Assembly: GCA_947503525.1 (NCBI GenBank)
Contig: CANNEA010000002.1
Location: 1,116,001 to 1,180,000, forward strand
Source of the DNA: an uncultured Carboxylicivirga sp.
Lineage (GTDB): Bacteria; Bacteroidota; Bacteroidia; Bacteroidales; Marinilabiliaceae
DNA length: 64,000 nucleotides
Direction: 5' to 3'
Shown: positions 3,909-59,083 of the stretch, one piece after another
Layout of the letters: each line of letters starts with the position of its first letter
Position numbering within the stretch: the first letter of the stretch is position 1
The notes under the pieces: generated by a model
Seen by the model: only the letters and a program-made list of their open reading frames with translations
Database searches by the model: none
What the model was told of the DNA's origin: nothing
Position numbers and translations under genes: made by a program

Positions 3909-3957
3909 AAAACAAAAGGGGTTGATCGTTATGATCAACCCCTTTTGTTTTTTATCC
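3909..3957. terminator. Bidirectional intrinsic terminator, 19-bp stem
   Basis: A perfect 19-bp inverted repeat (arms 3909-3927 and 3933-3951, loop GTTAT) starts with A-rich and ends with T-rich sequence, so it can terminate both the plus-strand T9SS gene (ends 3893) and the minus-strand EF-G2 gene (ends 3968). Confidence 0.85.
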
Positions 3958-49521: not shown

Positions 49522-51120
49522 ATGAGTGAGAAAAAAAACGGAGGTTTTTTTCAAAACCTAAAGCAAGATTTACCGGCTTCGATTGTTGTATTTTTAGTGG
49601 CTGTACCACTGTGCTTAGGTATTGCATTAGCTTCGGGAGCACCATTGTTTTCTGGTGTCATAGCAGGTATCGTTGGAGGTATTGTTGTAGGTGTTGTTAG
49701 TGGATCTCAGTTAGGAGTAAGCGGACCAGCAGCTGGTCTGGCTGTAATCGTATTAGCTGCAATTAGCGAATTGGGTTCATTTGAATTATTCTTGACGGCG
49801 GTGGTTATCAGTGGTGTAATTCAAATTATTCTTGGTTTTGCCAAAGCTGGTATTATAGGTTATTACTTTCCTTCATCCGTCATTAAGGGTATGTTGTCAG
49901 GAATTGGAATAATTATAATTCTTAAACAAATTCCGCACGCATTTGGATATGACAAGGATTTTGAAGGTAGTTTAGCTTTTGTTCAAGCAGATGGACATAA
50001 TACATTTACAGAACTTTATCACATGTTTGGAGCCCTTAGTCCCGGTGCAGTAATTATAACTCTTCTATCAATGTTAGTATTGATATTGTGGGAGCAGCCT
50101 TTTATTAAAAAGCTTAAGGCTACCAATATTATTCAAGGACCATTAGTGGTGGTAATTTTAGGAATTGTATTGAATCTTGTATTTTCAGGTTTCTCTCAAT
50201 TTAGTTTAAAACCTGAGCAAGTTGTGGCTATACCAGTAGCAGAGAGTTTATCAGGCTTTTTTGGCCAGTTCACATTTCCTGATTTCAGTCAGATTTTTAG
50301 TGGTCAGGTATGGATAATAGGAGCAACCATTGCTGTTGTGGCAAGTTTAGAAACACTTTTGTGTTTGGAGGCAACTGATAAGTTAGATCCACAAAAACGA
50401 ATTACTCCAGTTAATTTAGAACTAAAAGCGCAAGGTATTGGTAACATTCTTTCAGGATTAATTGGAGGATTGCCAATTACACAGGTAATCGTTCGTAGTT
50501 CAACAAATATTCAATCAGGTGGACGTACCAAACTGTCTGCAATATTTCATGGAGTAATTTTGCTTGTAAGTGCAATGGCGATTCCAAAGTTGCTGAATCT
50601 GATTCCTTTGGCCAGTTTAGCTGCAATTCTGTTTGTGGTTGGTTATAAGTTGGCTAAGCCTGTAGTATTTAAACAAATGTATAATCTTGGAGTTTCGCAT
50701 TTTGCACCATTTATGGTTACTATTGTAGGTATTATTTTTACCGATCTTTTAATTGGTATTGTTATGGGATTGGTTGTAGCAGTGATGTATATCCTTTATA
50801 ATAACTTCAAGAAGCCATTTTTATTTGAACATGGAGAACATCTTAAAGATGGTGTTTTAAGACTTGAATTAGCAGAGGATGTTACCTTTATCAACAAGGC
50901 CAGTATTCTAAATACGCTGAGTAAAATTCCTAATGAATCAAAAGTGGTTATTGACGCTTCTAAGTGTATTAACATTGATCAGGATGTTATTGAAATTATT
51001 AATGAGTTTGAAACTGGTGCAGAGTTTCGCGATATTGAGGTAGAAATTATCAAGCGTAAACGAAGAGGTGTTAAGAACCAGCATAAACTTATTGAGTCAG
51101 CTCTAAATATGAGTAACTAA
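49522..51120 (+). CDS. SulP family anion transporter (likely bicarbonate or sulfate)
   Basis: A 532-residue inner-membrane transporter with about 12-14 helices (LPASIVVFLVAVPLCLGIALASGAPLFSGVIAG). The SulP loop LGVSGPAAGLAVIVLAA follows, and a C-terminal STAS domain (about 430-510, LRLELAEDVTFINKASIL). The beta-carbonic anhydrase 12 bp downstream points to bicarbonate as the substrate, as in BicA-type systems; sulfate remains possible. Confidence 0.92.
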   Translation: MSEKKNGGFFQNLKQDLPASIVVFLVAVPLCLGIALASGAPLFSGVIAGIVGGIVVGVVSGSQLGVSGPAAGLAVIVLAAISELGSFELFLTAVVISGVIQIILGFAKAGIIGYYFPSSVIKGMLSGIGIIIILKQIPHAFGYDKDFEGSLAFVQADGHNTFTELYHMFGALSPGAVIITLLSMLVLILWEQPFIKKLKATNIIQGPLVVVILGIVLNLVFSGFSQFSLKPEQVVAIPVAESLSGFFGQFTFPDFSQIFSGQVWIIGATIAVVASLETLLCLEATDKLDPQKRITPVNLELKAQGIGNILSGLIGGLPITQVIVRSSTNIQSGGRTKLSAIFHGVILLVSAMAIPKLLNLIPLASLAAILFVVGYKLAKPVVFKQMYNLGVSHFAPFMVTIVGIIFTDLLIGIVMGLVVAVMYILYNNFKKPFLFEHGEHLKDGVLRLELAEDVTFINKASILNTLSKIPNESKVVIDASKCINIDQDVIEIINEFETGAEFRDIEVEIIKRKRRGVKNQHKLIESALNMSN

Positions 51121-51132
51121 AAAATCACGATT

Positions 51133-51768
51133 ATGGATAACAAAATAACACAAACAGCAACTTCTCAATCTGAGATTACACCTGGAAAAGCACTTGATTT
51201 CTTAAAGGATGGTAATAAGCGTTTTTTAGAGAAAAAACCTTTATCACGTGACTTAATTCAGCAAGTAAACGAAACCGCCTCGGGTCAGTTTCCTTTTGCT
51301 GCAATAGTAAGTTGCATAGATTCACGTATTCCTACAGAAGTGGTTTTTGATCAGGGAATTGGTGATGTGTTTAATGCAAGAGTAGCTGGTAATATTGTAA
51401 ATGAAGATATTCTTGGTAGCCTTGAATTTGCTTGCAAGTTAGCCGGTTCAAAATTGATAGTTGTGTTGGGCCATACCTCATGCGGAGCCGTAAAAGGAGC
51501 ATGTGATAATGCGCAGTTAGGTAATCTTACTACCCTATTAGCCAAGATAAAACCTGCTGTTGACGAAATTAAAACACCTTCCGGTGTTGAGCGCAATTCT
51601 TCAAACTTAAGTTTTGTAAATGATGTTGCAGAAAAAAATGTAGAGCTCACCATTCAGAATATTAAGGACCAGAGTGAGGTTCTTAAAGAGATGAATGCCA
51701 ATGGTGACATTAACATTATTGGAGCCATGTATGATGTTAAGACAGGTAAAGTAGTATTTGACTCTTAA
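51133..51768 (+). CDS. Beta-class carbonic anhydrase
   Basis: Zinc enzyme of 211 residues interconverting CO2 and bicarbonate. The ligands are in VSCIDSRIPTE (Cys and the Asp-Arg dyad) and GHTSCGAVKGA (His, Cys). FNARVAGNIVN is also typical. No signal peptide, so it is cytoplasmic. It forms a two-gene unit with the SulP transporter. Confidence 0.94.
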   Translation: MDNKITQTATSQSEITPGKALDFLKDGNKRFLEKKPLSRDLIQQVNETASGQFPFAAIVSCIDSRIPTEVVFDQGIGDVFNARVAGNIVNEDILGSLEFACKLAGSKLIVVLGHTSCGAVKGACDNAQLGNLTTLLAKIKPAVDEIKTPSGVERNSSNLSFVNDVAEKNVELTIQNIKDQSEVLKEMNANGDINIIGAMYDVKTGKVVFDS

Positions 51769-51824
51769 ATGATAAACTAATTGAGAATTGGAATCACCTC
51801 TTCTCAAATAATTCTTACATATAA

Positions 51825-51870
51825 ATAAAGGTTTGTACCTGGTAAAACTTGGGTGCAGACCTTTATTTTT
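51825..51870. terminator. Terminator between beta-carbonic anhydrase and DUF3592 gene
   Basis: A 15-bp stem with G-U pairs (51825-51839 with 51852-51866) is followed by TTTTT. The stem overlaps the end of the convergent DUF3592 gene. Confidence 0.65.
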
Positions 51871-52264
51871 TCAATACAATACCTGTAAGCGCCAGCCAAA
51901 CGAAACAAGCTGCTATAAATAGTAATGTAGGCATAAAGAATATGCCACTAGGTGACTTGATTGCGCCTTGGTCAGGGAAATGAGGGTTGTAGATAATTTT
52001 CACTTCTCTGAAATCATTGATGTAAAAATCAGAAGCCTCAATCTGATGGATTTCACCATTCACTTCATAGGAATAAAAATAGGTATCATAATTTGCAGTG
52101 CCAGCACCATTTGTGTTTCTCATGGTGTTTGATTTGTTGTTTTCGAACTCACCAATCATTGTTTTACCTGCAATGGATAGATAAATTCGAGGAACAATAA
52201 ATAGGAAGAAAAGAACAATCAGGCCAATTTTTTCGATGACGGATTTAAACTTTTTTGGCGACAT
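51863..52264 (-). CDS. DUF3592 domain-containing membrane protein
   Basis: A 133-residue protein with a membrane helix near each end (LIVLFFLFIVPRIYLSI and FFMPTLLFIAACFVWLAL). Between them lies a small domain with YSYEVNGEIHQIEASDFYIND and VKIIYNPHFPDQG, the DUF3592 pattern. The function is unknown. The ATG at 52264 is used; the frame extends upstream by 13 residues only from a weaker start. It sits convergent to the carbonic anhydrase and divergent from the trp operon. Confidence 0.78.
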   Translation of the reverse strand: MSPKKFKSVIEKIGLIVLFFLFIVPRIYLSIAGKTMIGEFENNKSNTMRNTNGAGTANYDTYFYSYEVNGEIHQIEASDFYINDFREVKIIYNPHFPDQGAIKSPSGIFFMPTLLFIAACFVWLALTGIVLKK

Positions 52265-52340
52265 ATTGTAAATTAATTGGGGGTATATCTGTAAAACTAA
52301 CACATTTATTGAAATAGTATTGTAAAAACGTAATTGATCG

Positions 52341-52373
52341 TTTGGAATTCTAATTTATTATTGCAAATATTTG
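52341..52373 (+). promoter_or_regulatory. Predicted promoter of the trp operon
   Basis: TTTG at 52341-52344 and AATATTTG at 52366-52373 (one mismatch to TAnnTTTG) are separated by 21 bp. Transcription should begin near 52380, giving about 13 bases before the leader peptide start codon. Confidence 0.55.
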
Positions 52374-52392
52374 TGCACAGAAAAAAGAAGAA

Positions 52393-52455
52393 ATGAATTT
52401 GAATTCAAGACATAATTGGCATTGGCACCATTCTAATCTTTCAGCACGGAGTTGA
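52393..52455 (+). CDS. trpL: trp operon leader peptide
   Basis: A 20-codon ORF with ATG 52393 and TGA 52453-52455, preceded by an A-rich start region (GAAAAAAGAAGAAATG) of the kind Bacteroidota use. Codons 9 and 11 are TGG (Trp) in a NWHWHH core, while Trp is otherwise rare in proteins. It lies just after the promoter and before an intrinsic terminator upstream of trpE. A ribosome stalled at the Trp codons would free the following RNA to form the antiterminator. The peptide is too short for normal ORF calls, so it will be missing from most annotations. Confidence 0.78.
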   Translation: MNLNSRHNWHWHHSNLSARS

Positions 52456-52526
52456 GGGCCATAGCCGTATATCTATAAAAGAACTATATGAAGGCTTACC
52501 TAACTCAAGGTAAGCCTTCTTTTTTT
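52418..52526 (+). promoter_or_regulatory. trp attenuator: alternative RNA pairings
   Basis: Segment 1 over the Trp codons (GGCATTGGC, 52418-52426) pairs with segment 2 (GCCATAGCC, 52458-52466) at 7 of 9 positions. Segment 2's AGCC (52463-52466) can instead pair with GGCT (52493-52496), which is in the left arm of the terminator; flanking ATAT elements may extend this antiterminator. Segments 3 and 4 form the 11-bp terminator. This is the order expected of Trp-dependent transcription attenuation. Confidence 0.65.
52491..52526 (+). terminator. Attenuator terminator upstream of trpE
   Basis: A perfect 11-bp stem (AAGGCTTACCT at 52491-52501 with AGGTAAGCCTT at 52508-52518, loop AACTCA) followed by a run of seven T, located 23 bp before the trpE ATG. 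A strong terminator directly in front of an operon has no sense unless it is regulated. Confidence 0.88.
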
Positions 52527-52548
52527 GACATTTTTTGAAAACCTAAAC

Positions 52549-53964
52549 ATGAAAACTAAAAATATAAAGTGTGTTACATCGCCCATCCCGGCTAATATTG
52601 CGGATGTTACCACACCCGTTAGCCTTTATTTAAAGTTGCGTGATGCTTATCCCAATACCATTCTATTGGAAAGTAGCGATTATCATGGCAACTCTAATTC
52701 CATGTCGTTCATTTGTTTCAATCCTATATTTGAATTTATTGCTGATAAAGGAGTCGTTTCGTTCGGTGAAGCACATAAAGAATTAGATCAAATTAACATT
52801 GATCAATCCAACAATGTACCTGCACTGTTAGATCAGTTTATTAGGAGTTTTCAAGTTGAAAAAGGAGACTGCCCGATTAAGGTGAATGGTTTGTTTGGAT
52901 ATACCACCTTTGATGCAGTTCAGTACTTCGATACATTAAGCTTTGAGGCGCCGATTAAAGATGAACATCAAATACCGGAGATGCGTTATACTTTCTATAA
53001 GTATATTATTGCATTTAACCACTTTAGTAATCAATTATATCTGATTGAAAATTTACAAGTTGGTGAAGTATCAAAAGGAAGTGAATTAATTGAAGCTTTG
53101 TATAATCGTACCATTCCATCTTTTAATTTCGAAGCCAATAACGAAGAAGTTTCGAATCTTACGGACGAGGAATATATGGCGATGGTAAGTAAAGGGAAAG
53201 AACATTGTTTTAGAGGTGATGTTTTCCAGATTGTTTTGTCGCGTCAGTTTAATCAATCGTTTAAAGGAGATGAGTTTAATGTCTATCGTGCTTTACGCAA
53301 TGTTAATCCATCACCATATTTATTTTACTTCGATTACGGGGCTTATAAAATTTTTGGTTCCTCACCTGAAGCTCAATTGATTATTGATAATAATGAAGCT
53401 ACAATTAACCCTATAGCAGGGACTTTTAAACGAACTGGTGATGATATTAAAGATCAGGAGTTAGCGATAAAATTAAGTGCAGACAAAAAGGAGAATGCTG
53501 AACATGTAATGTTGGTTGATTTGGCTCGAAACGATTTAAGTCGGAATTGTGCAGGTGTGAAAGTAAATACTTATAAAGAAGTACAATATTATTCGCATGT
53601 GCTGCATTTGGTTTCTGACGTGAGTGGTCAATTACAGGAAGGTTCAATCGCCTCAAGAGTGATGGCTGATACATTTCCTGCCGGTACCTTATCCGGGGCT
53701 CCTAAATACAAAGCTATGCAGTTAATTGATTCTATCGAGAATCAGAATAGAGGATACTATGGAGGTTGTATTGGAAATATAGGATTAGATGGAAGCTTTA
53801 ATCAGGCCATTATGATTCGTTCATTTTTAAGTAAAAACAATACCTTGTTTTATCAGGCAGGTGCTGGTGTTGTGAGTGAGTCAAAAGAGGAAAGTGAGTT
53901 GGCTGAAGTGAACAATAAACTAGGGGCCTTAAAGAAAGCCATTGAAATGGCTAAAGAATTTTAA
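52549..53964 (+). CDS. trpE: Anthranilate synthase component I
   Basis: Chorismate-using enzyme of 471 residues, the first step of tryptophan synthesis, working with TrpG. The feedback Trp-site motif appears as LLESSDYHG. The active site includes FQIVLSRQF, PSPYLFYFDYG, GSSPEA, INPIAGTFKR and the C-terminal GYYGGCIGNIG. The ATG at 52549 is chosen since the frame upstream runs into the attenuator. It heads a complete trpEGDCFBA set. Confidence 0.95.
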   Translation: MKTKNIKCVTSPIPANIADVTTPVSLYLKLRDAYPNTILLESSDYHGNSNSMSFICFNPIFEFIADKGVVSFGEAHKELDQINIDQSNNVPALLDQFIRSFQVEKGDCPIKVNGLFGYTTFDAVQYFDTLSFEAPIKDEHQIPEMRYTFYKYIIAFNHFSNQLYLIENLQVGEVSKGSELIEALYNRTIPSFNFEANNEEVSNLTDEEYMAMVSKGKEHCFRGDVFQIVLSRQFNQSFKGDEFNVYRALRNVNPSPYLFYFDYGAYKIFGSSPEAQLIIDNNEATINPIAGTFKRTGDDIKDQELAIKLSADKKENAEHVMLVDLARNDLSRNCAGVKVNTYKEVQYYSHVLHLVSDVSGQLQEGSIASRVMADTFPAGTLSGAPKYKAMQLIDSIENQNRGYYGGCIGNIGLDGSFNQAIMIRSFLSKNNTLFYQAGAGVVSESKEESELAEVNNKLGALKKAIEMAKEF

Positions 53965-53992
53965 TTAGCTAACCTTAAGAAAAAACAAGAAG

Positions 53993-54562
53993 ATGAAGAT
54001 ATTAATCCTGGATAATTACGATTCATTTACCTATAACCTTGTGCATTATGTGGAGGAAATAGTTGATGATAAAGTCGATGTATTTCGGAATGATGAAATA
54101 AGCATTGCTGATATAGCTAAGTACGATAAGATTCTTTTATCCCCAGGTCCGGGTATTCCTGATGAGGCTGGTATTTTGAAGGAGTTAATTAAAACTTACC
54201 TCTCTACTAAAAGCATTTTGGGTGTTTGTTTAGGTTGTCAGGCCATAGCAGAAGTATGTGGTGGAAGCATCAGAAATTTAAACAAAGTTTATCATGGAGT
54301 GGCAACACCAGTTACGGTGACAAGTCGTGATGAATTTCTGTTTGATTCATTGCCGGATGAGTTTCTGGCAGGGCGTTATCATAGCTGGGTGGTAAATGAA
54401 GAAGATTTGCCCAAAGAACTGGAAATTACTACGCGCGAGGCAGAAGGTCAAATTATGGGTGTTCGCCATCGTGAATTTGATGTGCGCGGAGTTCAGTTTC
54501 ATCCCGAATCTGTGTTAACAGAACATGGCAAACAAATGATTCGGAATTGGTTAAAAAACTAG
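53993..54562 (+). CDS. trpG: Anthranilate synthase glutamine amidotransferase
   Basis: Class I glutaminase of 189 residues that feeds ammonia to TrpE. The catalytic Cys lies in GVCLGCQAIAE and the His-Glu pair in VQFHPESVLTEHG; DNYDSFTYNLVHYVEE begins the family. It lies 28 bp after trpE. The Cys is in GCQAIAE, whereas PabA types often have GHQ, which still fits TrpG. Confidence 0.95.
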   Translation: MKILILDNYDSFTYNLVHYVEEIVDDKVDVFRNDEISIADIAKYDKILLSPGPGIPDEAGILKELIKTYLSTKSILGVCLGCQAIAEVCGGSIRNLNKVYHGVATPVTVTSRDEFLFDSLPDEFLAGRYHSWVVNEEDLPKELEITTREAEGQIMGVRHREFDVRGVQFHPESVLTEHGKQMIRNWLKN

Positions 54563-54603
54563 TTGCAGAATGAAAAGGATGACTAATAGCTAAAGCGAAA
54601 ACA

Positions 54604-55599
54604 ATGATCAAAACCATACTTAAACAATTACTTAACCATAAAACACTTAGTCGTGAACAGGCAAAGGAGGTGTTGGTAAATATTGCAAAGGAATCCTATA
54701 ATCAAAGTGAAGTTGTGGCTTTTCTTACCGTATTTATGATGCGTCCGGTAACGGTTGATGAATTAACCGGCTTTCGAGATGCCTTGCTGGAATTGTGTCT
54801 GCGTATCGACCTGTCTGATTATAATACCATTGATATGTGCGGGACAGGCGGTGACGGTAAAAATACATTTAATGTCTCCACTTTAGCTTCACTAATTGTT
54901 GCCGGTGCAGGAGCTAAAGTATCCAAACATGGTAATTACGGTGTGTCTTCTTCATGTGGATCATCTAACGTAATGGAGCATCTTGGATATACCTTTACCA
55001 ACGATTCGGATAAATTAAAACAACAATTGGATAAGGCCAATATTTGCTTTCTGCATGCTCCTTTATTTCACCCGGCTATGAAGGCAATTGGACCCATTCG
55101 AAGAGAATTAGGTCTGAAAACATTTTTTAATATGTTGGGACCTATGGTTAATCCTTCTTTCCCACAGAACCAGTTAGTTGGTGTGTTTAGTTTGGAGTTG
55201 GCCCGGATATATAATTACATTTATCAAAAGGGTACAAAAAATTATAGTATCATTCATTCATTGGATGGATATGATGAAATTTCTTTAACCGGGGATTTTA
55301 AGTCCATCACTCAGAATGGTGAGCACATGTATGCGCCGCGCGATTTTGAAATGAATGCGGTAAAACCAGATGAAATTTTTGGAGGAGATACTGTTCCTGA
55401 GGCAGCTAATATATTTAAAAGCATTCTGAATGGTACGGGCACGGATGCGCAAAACAATGTTGTGGTTGCCAATGCAGCACTGGCTTTACAATGTTATTAT
55501 CCGACAAAAGATTTAATGCAATGCATTGATGATGCCAGACAATCCTTAATGGAAGGGAAAGCGGCTAAAGTATTAACTACTCTTTTGAGTCTTTCTTAA
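54604..55599 (+). CDS. trpD: Anthranilate phosphoribosyltransferase
   Basis: Joins PRPP to anthranilate; 331 residues. PRPP-binding MCGTGGDGKNTFNVS and the anthranilate region KHGNYGVSSSCGSSNVMEHLG (read as separate motifs) are present, with LGPMVNPSFPQNQLVGV near the middle. It lies 41 bp after trpG and is not fused to it. Confidence 0.95.
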   Translation: MIKTILKQLLNHKTLSREQAKEVLVNIAKESYNQSEVVAFLTVFMMRPVTVDELTGFRDALLELCLRIDLSDYNTIDMCGTGGDGKNTFNVSTLASLIVAGAGAKVSKHGNYGVSSSCGSSNVMEHLGYTFTNDSDKLKQQLDKANICFLHAPLFHPAMKAIGPIRRELGLKTFFNMLGPMVNPSFPQNQLVGVFSLELARIYNYIYQKGTKNYSIIHSLDGYDEISLTGDFKSITQNGEHMYAPRDFEMNAVKPDEIFGGDTVPEAANIFKSILNGTGTDAQNNVVVANAALALQCYYPTKDLMQCIDDARQSLMEGKAAKVLTTLLSLS

Positions 55600-55610
55600 T
55601 TGAAGAACAA

Positions 55611-56411
55611 ATGACCATTTTAGATAAAATTATAGAGCGTAAGAAAGAAGAAGTTGCAGCAGCTAAGTTAAATATTAGCCAGGATGAGCTTGTGGCCAGT
55701 GAATGGTTTGGACTTAAGGTTCCTTCCCTGAAATCATCTCTATTAGATCCTGAAAAATCTGGTGTAATCACTGAGTTTAAGCGTCAGTCACCTTCGAAAG
55801 GTGTAATTAATGGCAAAGCAAAAGTTGCGCATGTGGTTAAGGCCTATGAATCTGCAGGAGCTTCAGGTTTGTCGGTGTTAACCGATACTGATTTTTTTGG
55901 TGGCACGTATGATGATTTGCGACAAGCCAGAGCTGTGACTTCGATACCCATATTACGAAAGGATTTTATGATAGATCCTTATCAGGTATATGAAGCAAAA
56001 GCGATGGGAGCCAGTGCAATACTGCTAATTGCAGCCTGTCTTAGTAATGATCAGGCAAAAGAATTGGGAGCCATGGCTCATTATTTAGGTTTAGAGGTAT
56101 TGATGGAATTACATGATGAAAGAGAACTCAAATGCCTGAATCCTTTTGTTGATGTGGTAGGTATTAATAATCGCAATCTTAAAACCTTTGAAGTAAGCTT
56201 AAGCAAGTCAGTTCAGTTAGCGAATCTTTTACCAAAGGATAAAATCAAAATTTCAGAGAGTGGAATTCACTCAAAAGAAGATGTGTTTTATCTACGTGAG
56301 AATGGATTTGAAGGATTTTTAATCGGGGAGAATTTCATGAAAACTGAAGATCCAGGACAGTCGTGTATCGACTTTTGTCAATCTATTTCTAAACAACAGA
56401 TTAATTCATAA
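55611..56411 (+). CDS. trpC: Indole-3-glycerol phosphate synthase
   Basis: TIM barrel of 266 residues. The catalytic Lys is in ITEFKRQSPSKG and the second in LRKDFMIDPYQVYEAKAMGA. Phosphate-binding motifs are VGINNRNLKTFEV and ISESGIHSKED. It is separate from trpF, which follows 3 bp later. Confidence 0.95.
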   Translation: MTILDKIIERKKEEVAAAKLNISQDELVASEWFGLKVPSLKSSLLDPEKSGVITEFKRQSPSKGVINGKAKVAHVVKAYESAGASGLSVLTDTDFFGGTYDDLRQARAVTSIPILRKDFMIDPYQVYEAKAMGASAILLIAACLSNDQAKELGAMAHYLGLEVLMELHDERELKCLNPFVDVVGINNRNLKTFEVSLSKSVQLANLLPKDKIKISESGIHSKEDVFYLRENGFEGFLIGENFMKTEDPGQSCIDFCQSISKQQINS

Positions 56412-56414
56412 TGT

Positions 56415-57038
56415 ATGAATGATTCAATGAAAATAAAAGTCTGTGGTATGCGAGAGCCTTCAAATATTAAAGATTTGATTGCTTTGGCTCCGGATTATAT
56501 GGGTTTTATTTTTTATAAGAAATCACCGCGTTATATTAATCGATGGCCAGATGTAGATTTTCCAGATTCGATTAAAAAAGTAGGCGTCTTTGTTAATGAA
56601 TCAGAACGAGTTATTAATGAAAAGCGAATAAGCTTTGGTTTAGATCTTTTGCAATTGCATGGTGATGAGTCACCGGAACTGTGTTATTTGCTAAAACAAT
56701 CGGGTGCTCAAATAATAAAGGTGTTCAGAGTTGATAAGGATTTTGATTTTGAACTAACAAGAAGGTATGAGGATTATGTCGACTATTTTTTATTCGACAC
56801 TGCAACAAAAGCATATGGTGGGAGTGGAGCGAAATTTAATTGGGATCTGTTGAAAAAATACAATAACTCCCGTCCTGTGTTTCTAAGTGGAGGAATTTCG
56901 AAGGATGACGCTGAGGCCATAACAAAGATTAAAGGAATTAATATTGTAGCCATTGATCTCAACAGCAAATTTGAATTGGAACCTGGAAAGAAGAATATCG
57001 AATTATTAAAGGACTTTTTTGGAAAGGTCAGAGAGTAA
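56415..57038 (+). CDS. trpF: Phosphoribosylanthranilate isomerase
   Basis: Amadori isomerase, TIM barrel of 207 residues. KVCGMREPSNI carries the catalytic Cys, LLQLHGDES the next strand, VDYFLFDTATKAYGGSGAKFNW the catalytic Asp, and FLSGGISKDDA the phosphate site. It starts 3 bases after trpC, so the two are translationally coupled. Confidence 0.95.
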   Translation: MNDSMKIKVCGMREPSNIKDLIALAPDYMGFIFYKKSPRYINRWPDVDFPDSIKKVGVFVNESERVINEKRISFGLDLLQLHGDESPELCYLLKQSGAQIIKVFRVDKDFDFELTRRYEDYVDYFLFDTATKAYGGSGAKFNWDLLKKYNNSRPVFLSGGISKDDAEAITKIKGINIVAIDLNSKFELEPGKKNIELLKDFFGKVRE

Positions 57039-57070
57039 GTCCAAATAGAAAAGATTTAACTAGTACTTGA

Positions 57071-58267
57071 ATGATGAGTGATAAAAATAAATATAAGGTT
57101 GACGAAAAAGGCATGTATGGCCGCTTTGGGGGTGCATTCATTCCAGAAATGCTTCAGCCAAATATCGAGAATCTGAAAAATGTTTATCTGGATATTATTA
57201 ATTCAGATGCTTTTCAAAAGGAATATAAGTCACTACTTAAAGATTATGTTGGGCGACCGTCACCATTGTATTTTGCCAAACGTTTATCTGAAAAATACGA
57301 TACCAACATCTACTTAAAACGAGAGGACCTCAATCATACTGGTGCACATAAAGTGAATAATACGGTGGGGCAAATATTAATTGCCAAACATATGGGCAAG
57401 GACCGAATAATTGCCGAAACAGGTGCCGGTCAGCATGGCGTAGCAACGGCCACAGCTTGTGCCTTAATGGGATTGAGGTGTGTCGTTTATATGGGTGAGA
57501 TCGACATCAAACGTCAGGCACCAAATGTTGCTCGAATGAAAATGTTGGGCGCAGAAGTTGTTGCTGCAACATCAGGTAGTAAAACGCTGAAAGATGCAAC
57601 CAACGAAGCTTTGCGTGATTGGATTTGTAATCCTGAGGATACTTTCTATTTGATAGGCTCAGTTGTTGGCCCTCATCCTTATCCTGATATGGTGGCTCGC
57701 TTGCAGGCGATTATAAGTGAAGAAATAGCATGGCAGATTAAGGAAAAAACTTCAAAAGATTATCCTGATTATGTTGTGGCTTGTGTTGGAGGAGGTAGTA
57801 ATGCTGCGGGTTCATTTTATCACTTTATGGATGATGAGCGAGTGAATCTGATTGCTGTTGAAGCGTCCGGAATGGGAGTTGATTCAGGAGAAACGGCAGC
57901 AACAATTGCTTTGGGAGATTTGGGAGTTATTCATGGGAGTAAGACTTTTTTAATGCAGAGCGATGATGGTCAGATCACCGAGCCTTATTCGATTTCGGCT
58001 GGCCTGGATTATCCTGGTATTGGGCCCTTACATGCCCATTTGCACGATACTAAACGAGCCAGTATTTTATCGGCAACAGATCAGGATGCACTGGATTCGG
58101 CCATGGAATTAACCCAGCTTGAAGGAATTATCCCTGCTTTGGAATCATCGCATGCCTTGGCTGTTTTGAAAAAGAAAAAGTTTAAAAAGAATGATTCGGT
58201 AGTCATCACTTTATCAGGTAGAGGAGATAAGGATATGGAAACTTACATGAAGCATTTTGGTTTCTGA
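57071..58267 (+). CDS. trpB: Tryptophan synthase beta chain
   Basis: PLP enzyme of 398 residues that joins indole and serine. [13 protein letters not shown] begins it; the PLP lysine is in [11 protein letters not shown], and [10 protein letters not shown] and [13 protein letters not shown] bind the cofactor. It is the long TrpB1 type that pairs with TrpA, encoded 42 bp downstream. Confidence 0.96.
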
Positions 58268-58309
58268 TGATACTTTTATTCGAATTTTAACGCATTGTTT
58301 TACTTTGGT

Positions 58310-59083
58310 ATGAATAGATTACAAAAACTCCTAAAGGAGCAAAAAGATATATTTTCAGTTTATTATACAGCGGGTTATCCAAACTTAAACGATACGATGC
58401 CTGTATTAAATGCCTTGCAGAAATCAGGCACTCATTTGGTTGAATTAGGCATGCCTTTTTCTGACCCATTGGCTGACGGACCAACTATTCAAAAGAGTAG
58501 TGAACAAGCTCTTGAGAATGGTATGAGCCTTAAAGTGTTGTTTGAGCAAATTAAGGATATGCGTTCAAGCATTGATATGCCTATTGTTCTGATGGGCTAT
58601 TTTAATCCGGTGTTTAAATATGGCGTTGAAGCATTTGTTAAGAAATGCAGTGAAGTTGGTGTGGATGGAGTAATACTGCCAGATCTGCCCTTTGATGAAT
58701 ATCAGGATAATTATCAGGATCTGTTTGAGCAAAATGGGATATCAAACATCTTCTTAATTACACCTCAAACACCCGATGAGCGCATTAAATTAATTGATGA
58801 CAATAGTAACGGGTTTATTTATATGGTTTCATCGGCCTCAGTAACCGGAGCTAAAAAGGGCTTATCCGATGAGCAAATCACATATTTCAATCGAGTGAAT
58901 AATCTTGGCCTTTCAACCGGTCGTTTAATAGGCTTTGGGATAAGTAACAAGGAAACCTTTCAGACTGCTTGTGATTTTGCATCCGGTGCAATAATCGGAA
59001 GTGCCTTTGTGAAGCTTCTGGATGAAAATGGCGCATCAGAAAAGGCGATTGCCGATTTTGTAAAAAACATAAAGAACAACTAA
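58310..59083 (+). CDS. trpA: Tryptophan synthase alpha chain
   Basis: TIM barrel of 257 residues that cleaves indole-3-glycerol phosphate. The catalytic Glu and Asp are in VELGMPFSDPLADGP, and IYMVSSASVTGAK and GFGISNKE form the phosphate site. ATG 58310 is preferred over TTG 58295. It ends the trp set, and purU starts 9 bp later. Confidence 0.95.
   Translation: MNRLQKLLKEQKDIFSVYYTAGYPNLNDTMPVLNALQKSGTHLVELGMPFSDPLADGPTIQKSSEQALENGMSLKVLFEQIKDMRSSIDMPIVLMGYFNPVFKYGVEAFVKKCSEVGVDGVILPDLPFDEYQDNYQDLFEQNGISNIFLITPQTPDERIKLIDDNSNGFIYMVSSASVTGAKKGLSDEQITYFNRVNNLGLSTGRLIGFGISNKETFQTACDFASGAIIGSAFVKLLDENGASEKAIADFVKNIKNN

Follow-up and report, generated by a model that had tools for sequence, protein, structure and literature searches.

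A probable ribosome-mediated transcription attenuator of the trp operon in an uncultured Carboxylicivirga sp. and its counterparts in relatives

Introduction

The enterobacterial trpL region comprises a short leader with two near-adjacent Trp codons, the mutually exclusive helices 1:2, 2:3 and 3:4, and a U-run terminator before trpE. TRAP and TrpR are established alternative controls of trp operons. For the Bacteroidota, the Rfam family RF01692 is described as 'Bacteroidete tryptophan peptide leader RNA'; under the name Bacteroid-trp, Table 1 of Weinberg et al. (2010) lists it for Bacteroidetes as an RNA (yes), as cis-regulatory (yes) and as a switch (no) (PMC2864571). In the accessible text of two further reports, leader-peptide attenuation before amino acid operons was proposed in Flavobacterium psychrophilum (PMC6414381, PMC9723704), and the former describes the Bacteroid-trp element as conserved upstream of the F. 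psychrophilum trp operon and compares it with the E. coli leader. Leader-peptide trp attenuation as such is already proposed for Bacteroidota. In the full-text literature searched (main texts without supplements, mostly outside the subscription journals), no direct experiment on trp attenuation in Bacteroidota and no tandem trp leader-peptide attenuators were found. The initial annotation of the locus described here knew of no experimental description of trp attenuation in this phylum, and this part of its statement stood; the novelty it implied did not, since RF01692 and the accessible text of PMC6414381 and PMC9723704 already propose leader-peptide attenuation.

Results

Organization of the trp leader region

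The window analyzed here is a 64,000-nucleotide stretch of DNA from an uncultured Carboxylicivirga sp. (GCA_947503525.1, contig CANNEA010000002.1). Region 52341-52548 lies directly 5' of trpE, and the gene order after it is trpEGDCFBA (Table 1). In the family search, trpG/pabA, trpD, trpC, trpB and trpA passed the curated cut-off; trpE and trpF matched their own families, both below the cut-offs.

Table 1. Features of the trp leader region, its surroundings and a His leader in the same genome
Feature	Position	Strand	Details and evidence
Carbonic anhydrase family gene, upstream of trp leader	51133-51768	+	ORF and family match
ORF between carbonic anhydrase family gene and trp leader	51863-52303	-	
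Promoter-like pair	52341-52373	+	TTTG (52341-52344), 21-nt spacer, AATATTTG (52366-52373)
Leader peptide ORF	52393-52455	+	20 codons, MNLNSRHNWHWHHSNLSARS; ATG to stop TGA (52453-52455); counterparts in relatives
Control codons	52417-52425	+	Trp 9 (52417-52419), His 10, Trp 11 (52423-52425)
Helix 1:2 (anti-antiterminator)	52417-52467	+	52417-52420:52464-52467, 52423-52426:52458-52461, 52428-52429:52456-52457; fold, own-versus-cross test
Antiterminator 2:3	52449-52506	+	GAGUU 52449-52453:AACUC 52502-52506, AGG 52455-52457:CCU 52499-52501, AGCC 52463-52466:GGCU 52493-52496; fold, pairing tests
Intrinsic terminator 3:4	52490-52526	+	stem 52490-52501/52508-52519, loop 52502-52507, T7 52520-52526
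trpE, anthranilate synthase component I	52549-53964	+	start ATG 52549; TIGR00564 E 4.7e-124, below family cut-off
trpG, trpD, trpC, trpF, trpB, trpA	53993-59083	+	ORFs and family matches
His leader MTNCIHHHHHFILRLW	L118 1486-1536, near 1197455 on same contig		hisG-like ORF assigned from its sequence

The Bacteroidota promoter consensus is TTTG/TAnnTTTG, and AATATTTG matches five of the six specified positions of TAnnTTTG. The spacing of the boxes was identical in two relatives (L083, TTTG/CATATTTG; L086, TTAG/CATATTTG). In 60 of the 84 loci scanned, the first leader was preceded by a promoter pair scoring at least 9/10, as against 6.2% of mononucleotide shuffles; the scan covered all of the 85 leader loci defined below except one that was too short. 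Reading of the sequence confirmed both the TTTG-N21-AATATTTG pair and the 20-codon ORF with Trp at codons 9 and 11 as they had been described in the initial annotation.

The terminator between the leader and the first structural gene consists of 12 uninterrupted base pairs, a 6-nt loop and seven T. It had been described as perfect and followed by seven T, which was correct, and as 11 bp long, which was one pair too short. Seven terminator-like sites were detected in 51000-54000 (shuffles average 1.4), among which the one before trpE has the most pairs; under a second set of scoring rules, the site at 51826-51865 outscored it (22 versus 18). Further strong terminator-like sites of the window lie at 51826-51865 and 3912-3948, and no short ORF rich in one amino acid was seen upstream of either.

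Conservation of the leader-terminator unit

Upstream sequences were collected from two sets of TrpE loci, namely, the best 80 of 589 matches in a search of named records, and 30 loci from a search of the window's own genome and its relatives, 60 genomes in all, of which 55 held a match. The 110 upstream sequences included 6 duplicates, leaving 104 distinct loci. TrpE of the window showed 83% identity to that of Carboxylicivirga sediminis (L003) and adjoined Carboxylicivirga on the TrpE tree with a support of 89. The unit was counted where two near-adjacent Trp codons stood in a leader ORF and a terminator followed at most 60 nt past the stop codon of that ORF. Among these best 80 of 589 matches and 30 further loci, it was found before trpE in 85 of the 104 distinct loci and in none of 2,080 dinucleotide-shuffled upstream sequences.

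The remaining 19 loci included 13 with trpB directly upstream of trpE. In 11 of these 13 trpB-first operons, the unit preceded trpB (L041, L043, L045, L051, L053, L054, L056, L071, L078, L080 and L081); the other two, L055 and L064, had 212 and 1 nt available before the trpB match. The Trp leader-terminator unit thus goes with the first gene of the operon. In L040 and L074, a terminator accompanied an ORF containing a single Trp; L012 and L024 offered upstream sequences of only 229 and 304 nt; and neither a Trp leader nor a terminator was found upstream of trpE in L042 and L058.

The 85 leaders contained 241 Trp among 1,637 residues, with three Trp in 57 leaders, two in 21 and four in 7, two Trp being the entry condition for a counted leader. 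The Trp slot in relatives was mostly WWW, WW or WxW. The W-H-W slot of the window was also present in L004, other close relatives having G-W-W and L097 W-W-W; from these sequences, the slot positions lost seem to differ among close relatives. At least two Trp were kept in every distinct locus among L002-L009 and L082-L111. The leader has the form of a short ORF that looks translated and whose control codons specify the amino acid made by its operon.

This distribution also bears on the reading of the terminator as that of an upstream transcript, next to a chance ORF with two Trp codons. A carbonic anhydrase family gene does lie upstream on the same strand, but a separate terminator, at 51826-51865, follows it, so the terminator before trpE is most likely part of the trp transcript. 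A minus-strand ORF intervenes as well, and the leader-terminator unit accompanies trp operons in relatives and is absent from shuffles, which makes this explanation highly improbable.

Alternative helices and their covariation

In the fold of RNA 52380-52478, the strand holding the two Trp codons paired with 52456-52467 to give helix 1:2. For a ribosome stalled at Trp 9, the RNA 3' of it, as far as the terminator loop, folded into the antiterminator 2:3, with the leader stop codon within the 5' strand of this helix. Helix 1:2 and the terminator each use bases of the antiterminator, which is therefore exclusive with both. Folding energies of single stretches in the window were unremarkable and would not alone have revealed the switch: the antiterminator stretch had a z of -0.62 (44 of 200 shuffles folded as well) and the stretch with the Trp-codon helix a z of -1.45 (18 of 200). 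For 52370-52530, which includes the terminator, z was -4.05 (0 of 200).

Covariation was evaluated by an own-versus-cross test, in which the pairing of a 5' segment with its own partner was compared with its pairings with the partners from all other loci. From 103 leader rows, the 85 first leaders were used and 18 second rows excluded (14 distal tandem leaders and 4 further upstream ORFs); with identity across the two arms kept below 75%, 55 loci remained. Pairing of the leader end with the terminator 5' half plus loop averaged -12.0 kcal/mol with the own partner versus -8.7 with others (z -9.8), the own partner being better in 49 of 55 loci and none of 5,000 permutations reaching this. Pairing of the Trp codons with the post-stop stretch averaged -13.6 versus -11.3 (44 of 55; 0 of 5,000; z -8.0). 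As controls, the leader 5' end gave z 1.1 against the terminator half and z -3.2 (8 of 5,000) against the post-stop stretch; the second control is not clean, and shared composition may explain part of the 1:2 signal. The segments had been widened between two runs of the test; with the narrower ones, z was -9.4 for the leader end and the loop and -5.1 for the Trp codons and the post-stop stretch, the 1:2 signal rising to -8.0 on widening. No preference for the own partner was seen in the inner part of the antiterminator, where the post-stop stretch was tested against only the 5' arm of the terminator (z -1.2; 607 of 5,000 permutations).

In the window's family, for which 18 representatives were drawn from the 32 rows of L002-L009 and L082-L111 (L009 falling outside the family's clade on the TrpE tree), z was -5.5 for the leader end and the terminator half, -2.6 for the Trp codons and the post-stop stretch, and -0.2 and -0.8 for the controls. 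Alignment A1 contained 27 of the 32 family rows (L006, L007, L008, L009 and L109 excluded). Its ten terminator pairs were 99.6% paired, and 18 cells were changed on both sides versus 5.2 in shuffles. The seven antiterminator pairs were paired in 78.6% of cells versus 70.1% in shuffles, and 19 cells were changed on both sides versus 7.1 (0 of 500). Five antiterminator pairs showed two-sided change versus 3.0 in shuffles (39 of 500), chiefly through slid registers.

The terminator 5' arm was also considered as the sole partner of the antiterminator, and proved weak; the loop was found to take part. In the arm-only fold test of the 85 loci, the pairing probability exceeded 0.5 in 39 with a stalled ribosome versus 6 with the ribosome at the stop codon, and in just 6 of 85 loci did at most 5 of 100 shuffles reach the observed value; the window had 0.38 when stalled versus a shuffle mean of 0.46, and 65 of 100 shuffles reached 0.38. 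When the loop was included, its pairing with the leader end under a stalled ribosome had a mean probability of 0.44 versus 0.14 in shuffles across the 85 loci. In this loop-aware test, 64 of 85 loci lay above their own shuffle mean, and in 40 of 85 at most 2 of 40 shuffles reached the observed value. The window had 0.64 versus 0.055, with none of 40 shuffles reaching it, and pairing of the loop was weak at several loci outside the family.

The antiterminator is thus exclusive with the terminator and supported by covariation, its inner part alone being without signal, and the control-codon helix 1:2 is exclusive with the antiterminator (z -8.0 in all loci, -2.6 in the family, with one control at -3.2). 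The two mutually exclusive pairings linking the Trp codons to the terminator, as initially claimed, both fold in the window and covary in relatives; the comparison of upstream regions that had been suggested as a check likewise found conserved Trp codons and covarying stems.

Tandem leader-terminator units

Two leader-terminator units in series were found before trpE in 14 of the 104 loci (L010, L014, L017-L019, L021-L023, L025, L027, L034-L036 and L061), and tandem loci were also present among L120-L149. The first unit consists of a distal leader with the motif xxINTIWLPWWGLLT, for example MKKINTIWLPWWGLLT or MTRFKSIWLWWGNTFLC, and a terminator; the second likewise has a Trp-rich leader and a terminator. 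Ten tandem loci grouped on the TrpE tree with Prolixibacteraceae records, in a starred clade of 15 rows of which 4 have a single unit and 1 is without a leader call. Three more, all from uncultured Bacteroidia MAGs, formed another starred clade, and L061 was a distant Ichthyobacteriaceae MAG. The distance from terminator 1 to the second ATG was at most 37 nt in 10 of 14 loci, and the interval between terminator 1 and leader 2 held no promoter candidate in 12 of 14, with weak ones in L025 and L035. With such short gaps and no intervening promoter candidate, a single transcript through both units is likely.

Across the window's order, the distal motif was present in 1 of 247 genomes; in the family of that one match (f72), it was present in 42 of 90. 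This family is taken as Prolixibacteraceae because its leaders match. Among 30 loci that were fetched, strict rules identified both leaders, both terminators and trpE in 17; 12 lacked a part and one was unparsed. The own-versus-cross test of the distal leaders (9 representatives of 14) gave z -2.6 (36 of 5,000) for the stop and the loop and z -2.4 for the stop and the terminator half; the Trp codons and the post-stop stretch gave no signal (z 0.4) among these 9 representatives, whose sequences are much alike. In Sunxiuqinia and Gaoshiqia (L026, L029 and L033), distal Trp codons are kept about 230-275 nt before the trpE match, and neither an in-frame start codon nor a following terminator was found for them; judging from these sequences, the distal leader has apparently decayed there.

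Searches for other tryptophan regulators in the genome

Control by TRAP-like protein-mediated attenuation or by TrpR repression has the merit that both are established for trp operons, but TRAP (PF02081) and TrpR (PF01371) had no match in the whole 6.56-Mb genome, and both models were detected in control genomes. The chances of such control are rated as very slight, although a different protein, or one working in addition to the attenuator, may play a part. An RNA that senses Trp or tRNA independently of translation, such as a T-box-like element or a Trp aptamer, with an incidental ORF, would agree with a structured leader RNA preceding trpE. Against it, scoring of 150 of the 278 first-look candidates gave no T-box in the 6.56-Mb genome, whereas the T-box was detected in control genomes; the window had no Rfam match above the gathering cut-off; and the Trp codons of relatives stay in frame within a short ORF while the surroundings diverge; we regard this explanation as scarcely credible.

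In the same genome, 17 kb past the end of the window, a His leader, MTNCIHHHHHFILRLW, and a terminator precede a hisG-like ORF, an arrangement that is likely a his attenuator.

Discussion

The conserved Trp codons and terminator, the covarying exclusive helices, the promoter-like pair and the negative genome searches for TrpR, TRAP and the T-box are best fitted by leader-peptide attenuation, and support the earlier proposal that the operon is controlled by ribosome stalling at Trp codons. The His leader and terminator before the hisG-like ORF of this genome also speak for this reading. From sequence, we put the probability that the element attenuates transcription of the trp operon in a ribosome-mediated manner at about 93%. 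Its parts, their conservation and the covariation of its helices and terminator were observed directly; from them we infer where transcription starts, that the leader is translated, that the ribosome stalls, that transcription terminates and that the system responds to Trp. The transcript would begin near 52380, and a ribosome would translate the leader. When charged tRNA-Trp is scarce, the ribosome would stall at Trp 9 or 11 and cover the 5' strand of helix 1:2, leaving the leader 3' end free to pair with the emerging terminator 5' arm and loop. This antiterminator would block the terminator from closing, and trpEGDCFBA would be transcribed. When Trp is plentiful, a ribosome at the stop codon would mask the antiterminator 5' strand, so that the terminator could form and transcription would end before trpE. 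Were no ribosome present, helix 1:2 would form and termination would likewise be favoured.

Taking the results together, we lean slightly towards a broader reading in which the trp attenuator is an ancestral Bacteroidota device that moves with the lead gene of the operon. Its antiterminator would be built on the leader stop, so that reaching the stop signals termination. Prolixibacteraceae-like genomes would carry two such devices in series on a single transcript, first an IWLPWW leader and its terminator and then a WWW leader and its terminator, as two Trp-sensing gates that must both open and that may sharpen the response. The attenuation scheme is concrete and testable, and concerns how members of this phylum can control trp synthesis without the textbook Trp regulators, which were not found in the one genome searched.

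Among described systems, RF01692 shares with the window a Trp-codon leader before trp genes in Bacteroidota. The window scored 22.4 bits against this model (E 3.5), below its gathering threshold of 49, and only 2 of 20 chosen relatives passed, so that the curated family misses 18 of the 20 tried. The alignment of the window nevertheless spans the full length of the model and keeps ATG and AAGGCUU in register; in both, the Trp-codon stretch lies in the 5' strand of a helix and the model end corresponds to the terminator 5' arm. In contrast, the structure line of the model has one long helix (1:2) and no antiterminator. The F. psychrophilum attenuators belong to the same phylum and are proposed to act by the same mechanism, the accessible text of PMC6414381 naming the trp operon; they differ in coming from a flavobacterium, and the proposals in the accessible text of PMC9723704 and PMC6414381 do not include an antiterminator.

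Compared at the level of general layout, enterobacterial trpL has the same arrangement of leader, helices and terminator as the window. The promoter type differs, however, and the genome has no TrpR match. The stop codon of the window's leader also lies inside the antiterminator 5' strand, and that strand reaches the terminator loop. This stop-codon antiterminator and the tandem trp attenuators of Prolixibacteraceae-like genomes go beyond the prior record seen, and the latter offer a natural case for what a second gate adds.
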